64,000 bases of DNA. It comes from Acidobacteriota bacterium. Lineage in GTDB: Bacteria > Acidobacteriota > Holophagae > Thermotomaculales > Thermotomaculaceae. Positions within the stretch are counted from its first letter, which is position 1. Every line of letters begins with the position of its first letter. Made by a program: the position numbers and the translations under genes. Below are positions 42,740-45,299 of the stretch, piece by piece. Below the pieces are notes generated by a model. The model was not told the DNA's origin and did not search any database. It was given only the letters and a program-made list of their open reading frames with translations. Where the stretch lies: the NCBI GenBank assembly GCA_013152385.1, contig JAADGL010000025.1:30713-94712 (forward strand), written 5' to 3'.

Positions 42740-43561
42740 TTGATCTATGGCATTTCAACACACATTGTCGCAGGAGAACCTCTCACCGGCGAACACCTGG
42801 ACCGTATCGCAGATGCCGGTTTTGATACCATTGAACTGTTTGCCAATTCCAGGCAGATCGATTTTAACAATCCCGCCGTACTCCGGGAAATTACCGGAGC
42901 CATCAACCGGAACCAATTATACGTCAACTCTGTTCATACCCCATTTTATGCGTCCATTGAAGAATTATACAGGGGGCGGTTTCTGGACATCAGCTCAAGC
43001 GATGAAGCACTGCGAAAACAATCCGTGGAAGAAATTATCAAATCTCTGGTGCTGGCTTCCTATATTGATGTAGACTATTTTATTCTCCACTTTCCCGGAA
43101 CGGAAAATTCAGACACTTTAATGAAAAGCATTGACCGGCTCCACACCGTTTCCGAACAGCTCAAAACAAAGTTATGTTTCGAAAATGTCCCCGGGAAAAC
43201 CACAGGCATTCCGGATATTGTTCATTTTCTCGAAGAAAAAAAAATTCCATTCGGAGTCTGTTTCGACATCGGACACAGCCGCATTGCCGGACGCATGTTA
43301 AAGGATATTGAAGAATTCGGCGTGCATTTTTACACCGCGCACATCCACGATAATGACGGCAGCCGCGACCTCCACCAGATTCCCTTTGAAGGCGGTATCC
43401 CCTGGGAAAAAGTGATGTCAGCTTTTCGGAAGGTAGATTATAAATGGGGATTTATGATGGAGATTAAACGTCCGGGAGATACAGAACTTGAACCTGTTCT
43501 TGAAAAAATATACAGGACAGTGGCAAAATTTGAACAGCTGGAAGGGACAGCAGATTCATGA
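42740..43561 (+). CDS. Sugar phosphate isomerase/epimerase family protein (AP endonuclease 2-like TIM barrel)
   Basis: A 273-residue xylose-isomerase-like TIM barrel. Visible barrel motifs are DTIELFANSR, VNSVHTPF, YFILHFPGTE, LCFENVPGK (metal Glu), GVCFDIGHSRIAG (metal Asp/His), AHIHDNDGSRDLH and FMMEIKRPG (last Glu). These are the metal ligands of sugar isomerases, epimerases and endonuclease IV, and they cannot be told apart by sequence reading. The start is TTG at 42740 with CAGGAGGTG just upstream. It overlaps the IspH-UbiA gene by 4 bases (ATGA), so the two probably act together or at least are translated together; the substrate is unknown. Confidence 0.85.
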   Translation: MIYGISTHIVAGEPLTGEHLDRIADAGFDTIELFANSRQIDFNNPAVLREITGAINRNQLYVNSVHTPFYASIEELYRGRFLDISSSDEALRKQSVEEIIKSLVLASYIDVDYFILHFPGTENSDTLMKSIDRLHTVSEQLKTKLCFENVPGKTTGIPDIVHFLEEKKIPFGVCFDIGHSRIAGRMLKDIEEFGVHFYTAHIHDNDGSRDLHQIPFEGGIPWEKVMSAFRKVDYKWGFMMEIKRPGDTELEPVLEKIYRTVAKFEQLEGTADS

Positions 43562-45273
43562 AAATTATCGTGGCCGAATCCGCCGGATTCTGCTGGGGAG
43601 TCCGGCGGGCAATGGAAAAAACGCTGCATCTTGCAGGCTCAGCTGAAAAGCACGAAATTCACACCCTCGGCCCGCTGATTCACAACACACAGGTGGTGGA
43701 GTTTCTTTCTTCAAGAGGCGTAAAAGAAATTCATTCGCCGGATGAAGCAGGGAAAGAAACCGTCATCATCCGGGCCCACGGCACCACACCTGAAACCCTT
43801 GATACATTGAGAAAAAGCGGAGCCCGAATTGCAAATGCAACCTGTCCAAGGGTTGGCAGAGTTCAGGCGCTGATCAAAGGGCATCTTGCAAAGGGATATG
43901 AAATTATTATCATCGGTGATCCGGGGCATGCGGAAGTAAAAAGCCTCATGGGATATGCACAGGGAAAAGCACACTTGATCCAAACGCCTGATCAGGCCGG
44001 AAATCTCGCCCCTCTTCAAAAGGCAATTGTTGTGTCGCAAACCACCTTTGACAAAAAAATTTTCAACGACATCACGGAACAACTGCGGAAAAAGGTGGAA
44101 GAGTTGGAAGTATTCTGCACTATCTGTGATTCCACCGCCAAAAGGCAGGATGAAGTAAAAAAACTGGCATTGAAAGCGGACTGCATGGTAATTGTCGGCG
44201 GACACCACAGCGCAAACACAACCAGGCTGGCTGAAATCTCCGCACGTTACTGTAAAAATGTTTATCATATTGAAACGGCATCGGACCTATCGGATATTGA
44301 CATAAACCCATACCAGACAATCGGAGTATCCGCCGGAGCATCCACCCCCAACTGGATAATTAACAGCGTGGTTCAGACACTGCGATTCAAAAACAAGGAA
44401 AAATCATTATCCTTTCGCCTCTTCGGATGGATGATTTACGGAGGAATCTTCCGGGCTCTCGCAGCCTTTCTGCTCTGCCTTGGAATCCTGAATATATTTC
44501 AGCTGCCCCTTTCATGGAAATTCCCCCTGATTGCGTTCTGCTATCTTTTTTCCGTCACAAATCTCAATGGAATTGTCAGCGGGCAAACCCTCCTTTTCAG
44601 TGATCCGACCCGATACAATTTTCTCCAGCAACGGCGGAAACAACTGATTATTTTTTCAATTGCTTCAATCTTTTTTGTTTTGGCTCTGGGCCTGTCCCTG
44701 TCCATCTGGGGCTTTGTTATGCTTATTTTTGCCGTACTCCTCGGGGTTTTATATCGGATCCGAATTGGTTTTGCCGGAAAACCGTTTCGAATCTTCGATA
44801 TTCCCGGTTCCAAAAATCTATTTCACGGACTTGCCTGGTCCATTGTTATTGCAATTATCCCACTTCTCGAAAATGGTGTCCGCTCATGGCACTCTTTCAT
44901 TACGGGGCCGGGACTTGTCTTCATGATTGTCTTTTCCGGAACTGTACTTTTCGACTTTAAAGATTATCAGGGAGATCAGTTTGCAGGAAAAGAAACTTTA
45001 CCGATTCTTCTTGGCCGAAAACGTGCGGCTCGCATTGTATTTCGCAGCGTTGTGGTTTTGGGCTGCATTTTTACCGGAATTGCCCTTCTTGCCGGTTCTG
45101 TGAAGACCGGAACGGTGCTGATGCTGTCTTTTATTTACATACTTCTGGTTTTCCACCGTTACGCAAACAAAAGTACAATTCCTTCCGACGGACGGTTTGA
45201 GTTTATTGTGGACGGACTTGCTTTGGCACCATGGCTGATCTCTCTGTTCATTTCTCTTCTTCTCCGGGCATAA
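43558..45273 (+). CDS. Fusion of IspH (HMBPP reductase) and a UbiA-like membrane prenyltransferase domain
   Basis: N-terminal part (~1-280) is IspH, which reduces HMBPP to IPP and DMAPP, the last MEP-pathway step: Fe-S cysteines at 12 (AGFCWGVRRA), 96 (ATCPRV) and 190 (CTICDST), His42, His74 and Glu126 (GHAEVKS), and SAGASTP. The C-terminal ~285 residues form about eight helices of the UbiA type, with the second Asp-rich motif DFKDYQGDQFAGKETLP. The first UbiA motif (NDxxD) is replaced by TNLNGIVSGQ, so catalysis is uncertain. No stop separates the parts; IspH alone is ~290-310 residues. A UbiA next to a prenyl-diphosphate-forming enzyme hints at channelling. It is followed by a terminator. 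Confidence 0.9.
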   Translation: MKIIVAESAGFCWGVRRAMEKTLHLAGSAEKHEIHTLGPLIHNTQVVEFLSSRGVKEIHSPDEAGKETVIIRAHGTTPETLDTLRKSGARIANATCPRVGRVQALIKGHLAKGYEIIIIGDPGHAEVKSLMGYAQGKAHLIQTPDQAGNLAPLQKAIVVSQTTFDKKIFNDITEQLRKKVEELEVFCTICDSTAKRQDEVKKLALKADCMVIVGGHHSANTTRLAEISARYCKNVYHIETASDLSDIDINPYQTIGVSAGASTPNWIINSVVQTLRFKNKEKSLSFRLFGWMIYGGIFRALAAFLLCLGILNIFQLPLSWKFPLIAFCYLFSVTNLNGIVSGQTLLFSDPTRYNFLQQRRKQLIIFSIASIFFVLALGLSLSIWGFVMLIFAVLLGVLYRIRIGFAGKPFRIFDIPGSKNLFHGLAWSIVIAIIPLLENGVRSWHSFITGPGLVFMIVFSGTVLFDFKDYQGDQFAGKETLPILLGRKRAARIVFRSVVVLGCIFTGIALLAGSVKTGTVLMLSFIYILLVFHRYANKSTIPSDGRFEFIVDGLALAPWLISLFISLLLRA

Positions 45274-45299
45274 AAAAGGAGGCCGAAGCCTCCCGTTTT
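45272..45299. terminator. Bidirectional terminator after ispH-ubiA
   Basis: Stem GGAGGC (45278-45283), loop CGAA, stem GCCTCC (45288-45293), with six A before and CGTTTT after. The left A run makes it best for the minus-strand operon ending at 45321, but it can also serve the plus-strand gene. It uses the same stem sequence as the terminator at 27261. Confidence 0.8.

Follow-up and report, generated by a model that had tools for sequence, protein, structure and literature searches.

An IspH–UbiA fusion of Holophagae that carries the sole IspH of its genome and a UbiA-fold domain with an altered first aspartate motif

The window, a stretch of 64,000 nucleotides from an acidobacterial (Holophagae) contig, contains a gene that joins IspH to a polytopic membrane domain of the UbiA type. 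This raises the question of whether the membrane domain is a working prenyltransferase beside IspH, or a tether or sensor for it.

Gene, domains and neighbourhood

The fusion gene (43558..45273, forward strand) starts with ATG and encodes 571 residues in a single frame with no internal stops, the UbiA domain being C-terminal to IspH. The full-length protein, modelled by AlphaFold2 from 65 sequences, gave a pLDDT of 90.6 and a pTM of 0.83. The IspH (LytB) domain (43558..44388, forward strand; about residues 1–277) matched Pfam LYTB over residues 3–275 (E 4.2e-88) and TIGR00216 (ispH_lytB) with 272.7 bits (cut-off 187.85), and a Foldseek search with the N-terminal half returned E. coli IspH, P. 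falciparum IspH and 3dnf. As a preliminary description of the locus had stated, all cluster cysteines (C12, C96 and C190) and active-site residues (H42, H74, H124, E126, T163, S218, N220 and S262) were present; they were also invariant across the fusion family.

The host genome, which is 99.3% complete, contained one LYTB match, and this was located in the fusion. In 25 further genomes the strong LYTB match likewise lay in a fusion-length frame; 24 of these had no other match and one had an extra weak match. Thus, across the 26 genomes examined, the fused protein carried the sole full-strength IspH. The host genome also encodes IspG and two polyprenyl synthases, which an operating MEP pathway would lead one to expect. 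Since the fusion holds the only LYTB match, the IspH half must work if the pathway does. That this half is a working HMBPP reductase is, together with membrane tethering, the most secure part of the functional interpretation, the activity being deduced from the sequence.

The UbiA-fold membrane domain (44407..45270, forward strand; residues about 284–571) has nine predicted membrane helices. Residues 360–537 matched Pfam UbiA (PF01040; E 5.1e-12; 46.1 bits, above the curated threshold of 34.2), and the domain modelled alone by AlphaFold2 had a pLDDT of 92.1. Foldseek with the C-terminal half gave AfUbiA (4tq3) as the best match, and also returned ApUbiA (4od4) and DGGGP synthase. These profile and structural matches, both to UbiA, bear out the polytopic UbiA-type domain of the preliminary description and exclude the unrelated membrane family that it had allowed for. 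Of the checks that it had proposed, AlphaFold modelling returned the UbiA fold at high pLDDT, and profile comparison succeeded at the level of PF01040 but not at that of subfamilies: no NCBIfam UbiA subfamily model reached its cut-off in a search with the fusion, so that the acceptor cannot be named from sequence. Searching solved structures by sequence with the single domain yielded no useful match, and with the family profile only weak matches to DGGGP synthase and chlorophyll synthase; a PHROGs search gave no match. The fusion domain is similar to AfUbiA and ApUbiA in its nine-helix fold and its second-motif aspartates, and has a tyrosine that may correspond to theirs. It differs from them in its low identity (12–16%), in the replacement of D72 by serine, in the attached IspH and in a short β-hairpin, predicted between TM4 and TM5, ahead of an invariant P-x-SK. 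Within the genus, dN/dS was 0.06–0.14 for the UbiA half and about 0.07–0.09 for the IspH half, with dS near saturation; both halves of the gene are under constraint.

Directly upstream lies a gene for a xylose-isomerase-like TIM-barrel protein (42740..43561, forward strand; AP_endonuc_2, E 1.7e-24), the stop codon of which overlaps the ATG of the fusion by four bases (ATGA). In the genus and the sister genus it occupied this position in every case with available upstream sequence. The TIM-barrel protein showed a weak similarity to CbiR, below the cut-off. Between the fusion and the convergent downstream gene is a terminator-like hairpin (45277..45294) with T/A runs on both sides, recognized by consensus match only. 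Farther neighbours differed by lineage, and no isoprenoid gene context around the fusion was conserved across lineages. The neighbourhood, which indicated no specific pathway, was therefore rejected as a functional clue.

A search for a separate ubiA or menA had also been proposed. The host genome encodes four further UbiAs, whose probable types were read from their sequences and neighbours. One looks like MqnP and adjoins UbiX and a radical-SAM futalosine-type gene, one is MenA-like and one resembles decaprenylphosphoryl-ribose synthase. In a longer membrane protein, a 549-residue frame (L003:592-2241, G000:C62), a long additional membrane region precedes the UbiA domain, and both Asp motifs are kept as judged by eye. 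With separate MqnP-like and MenA-like proteins present, quinone prenylation need not depend on the fused domain alone.

Spread and origin of the fusion

The preliminary description took the IspH–UbiA pair for a new arrangement, which is incorrect: Rao et al. reported 47 such fusions in 2015, all stated to be in sulfate reducers, described them as 'Rosetta stone' proteins and suggested membrane tethering and a local supply of IPP/DMAPP, with no full-length active protein obtained (PMC4746011). The present protein has the same domain order and a similar size, and we accept it as a member of that group, in which the UbiA part is assigned to PT_UbiA_5; it differs in its host, an acidobacterium of the Holophagae that is not a sulfate reducer, and in a first motif without D72. 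IspH–RPS1 fusions of Clostridia also have a second domain joined to IspH, but there the partner is soluble ribosomal protein S1.

The same full-length frame was found in three congeneric species (69–78% identity), in five species of a sister genus (47–49%) and in the majority of the third-family members sampled (33–39%). The preliminary description had suggested looking for the domain pair in other genomes, and about 95 distinct fusion proteins were obtained in total. Named matches assigned these three groups to Acidobacteriota (Holophagae, including Geothrix); further ones came from Nitrospinota, Zixibacteria, Glassbacteria and numerous Desulfobacterota. The merging of two genes by an error of sequencing or assembly, for which no point in favour was found, is excluded, given that the frame recurs in the three congeners and in about 95 distinct proteins, one of them in the finished genome of Desulfosarcina widdelii. 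Geothrix is not a sulfate reducer, and the range of the fusion is therefore wider than Rao et al. stated.

In the phylum of Desulfosarcina widdelii, matches above 60 bits were found in 93 of 247 genomes, nearly all of them in frames longer than 500 residues, candidate fusions by length. When these 247 genomes were searched for close but unfused relatives of the UbiA domain, one match only, contig-edge fragments apart, lay in a short frame (G379:C6, 76 bits); it is a distant paralogue. A tree of IspH domains placed 43 fused rows on one side of a branch and 26 unfused acidobacterial rows on the other (SH-aLRT 97). This supports a single origin of the fusion, which we favour short of proof because the unfused IspHs in the tree came from Acidobacteriota only. 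The architecture was published in 2015, but the fusion now proves to be old and present in several phyla. What is new is that it is frequent beyond the sulfate reducers (in Holophagae/Geothrix, Nitrospinota and Zixibacteria), that it carries the sole full-strength IspH of the genomes checked, and that its Mg2+/diphosphate ligands have been recurrently lost.

Mg2+ ligands and the conserved pocket

In AfUbiA two Mg2+ ions are held by N68, D72, D198 and D202; each of the mutations N68A, D72A, R22A and K146A abolishes GPP binding, and D198A and D202A weaken it 45-fold and 21-fold respectively (PMC4106721). The preliminary description had noted both TNLNGIVSGQ and DFKDYQGDQ, which are present as described. 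The first motif of the fusion, NGIVSGQTL (44566..44592, forward strand), is degenerate. In place of the pattern NxxxDxxxD, which contains the N68 and D72 ligands, N337 is kept at the position of N68, Ser341 replaces D72 and Leu345 replaces D76. Alignment to the host MqnP paired N337 with N58 and S341 with D62, and these two residues were kept in all three ordinary UbiAs of the host genome that were compared. The absence of the first aspartate of 'ND' was rejected as evidence, as the host MqnP itself reads NRxxD there; the informative loss is that of D72 to serine, which strengthens the doubt already voiced over this motif. The second motif, DFKDYQGD (44953..44976, forward strand), is kept and includes D466; its DxxxD pattern is provided by D469 and D473, equivalent to D198 and D202. 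Between TM4 and TM5 (44752..44814, forward strand) lie Y399, the hairpin (residues 402–411) and IPGSK (415–419). Y399, just after predicted TM4, was matched to the catalytic tyrosine Y139 by position only.

We then compared these positions among 95 distinct fusions, a set made up of the best-scoring 80 named loci and close relatives, so that the proportions are not unbiased frequencies. The equivalents of N68, D72, D198 and D202 were kept in 50, 63, 73 and 95 fusions respectively, and all four together in just 14. The D72 equivalent was lost in 32 fusions, a pattern that requires five or more changes on the tree, and that of D198 in 22. At the D72 position all four species of the host genus have serine, whereas four of five in the sister genus have aspartate; in the sister genus and Nitrospinota, most members retained all four ligands. 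The D72 equivalent was missing from most sampled Desulfobacterales, and the N68 equivalent from most Holophagaceae. Y399, P416, S418, K419, D473, G477 and T480 were invariant in all 95 fusions, and IPGSK as a whole was nearly so.

The 'two DXXXD' of Rao et al. fits neither the present protein nor most sampled fusions. It is not general: three Desulfobacula loci (L066, L105 and L113, a sample that excludes the exact D. toluolica protein of Rao et al.) have lost D72 and have alanine at the D198 position of motif 2. Inspected by eye, a Holophagaceae genome encodes a second, diverged IspH–UbiA paralogue (L189:3054-4601) with the three IspH cysteines but eroded UbiA motifs.

Enzyme, tether or sensor

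The combination of an invariant pocket and eroded Mg2+ ligands moderately favours binding over ordinary transfer in the host genus. We give about an even chance to the interpretation that the UbiA-fold half acts there mainly as a membrane tether and prenyl-diphosphate-binding module for local supply or feedback, and not as a conventional Mg2+-dependent prenyltransferase. The C-terminal domain would fix the sole HMBPP reductase at the cytoplasmic face of the membrane, where the IspH half would produce IPP and DMAPP. The membrane side is suggested by AfUbiA, in which the UbiA motifs face the cytoplasm (PMC4106721), in keeping with an N-terminal cytosolic IspH. With its pocket retained (the tyrosine, Pro-x-Ser-Lys and the last aspartate of motif 2), the UbiA-fold half probably still meets a prenyl-diphosphate-like ligand, and loss of the aspartate that coordinates the first Mg2+ would probably preclude standard transfer in the host genus. 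Against this interpretation, motif 2 and the putative catalytic tyrosine are intact, a neighbouring residue might substitute for D72, and there is no isoprenoid gene neighbourhood to back a specific role.

Possible, if doubtful, is an active UbiA prenyltransferase that uses prenyl diphosphates with C5 units channelled from the attached IspH, as proposed by Rao et al. (PMC4746011). The UbiA fold, the retention of motif 2, Tyr399 and Lys419, the strong purifying selection and the 14 fusions with all four Mg2+ ligands argue for such an enzyme, and the losses of the D72 equivalent in the host genus and most sampled Desulfobacterales, of the N68 equivalent in most Holophagaceae and of the D198 equivalent in 22 fusions argue against it. 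IspH yields C5 units, but the usual substrates of UbiA enzymes are longer chains, and ordinary UbiAs are encoded separately in most of the genomes. The ancestral UbiA-fold domain was probably a catalyst, considering that motif 2 and the tyrosine are intact and that the four ligands persist in the majority of the sister genus and Nitrospinota; fusions with all four may still be enzymes.

A more specific alternative, which we consider unlikely, is that the domain is a degenerate prenyl-diphosphate sensor through which the attached IspH, the final step of the MEP pathway, receives feedback. In mammals, HMG CoA reductase is controlled by UBIAD1, which responds to geranylgeranyl isoprenoids (PMC4374513); a UbiA fold is thus capable of regulating the supply of precursors. 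In both cases a UbiA-fold protein is physically linked to an isoprenoid-precursor enzyme, but UBIAD1 belongs to another pathway and acts as a separate protein through degradation control, so that the likeness is an analogy and not evidence. If true, the sensor domain would be a built-in bacterial counterpart of that control.

It is quite unlikely that the UbiA half is a plain membrane anchor, which has no specific ligand and just keeps IspH close to enzymes of lipid synthesis or to an electron donor in the membrane. Such a role would suit the persistence of the fusion while catalytic ligands were repeatedly lost, and two distant fusions (L187:1651-3468 and L190:2019-3713) look eroded in both Asp motifs by eye, without alignment; however, the invariance of Y399, S418, K419, D473, G477 and T480 exceeds the needs of an anchor.

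The survey provides a natural series of proteins, with four ligands kept, one lost or several lost on a conserved pocket, which makes the choice between an enzyme and a sensor or tether directly testable. The answer would reveal how isoprenoid supply and the membrane are coupled in some bacteria.
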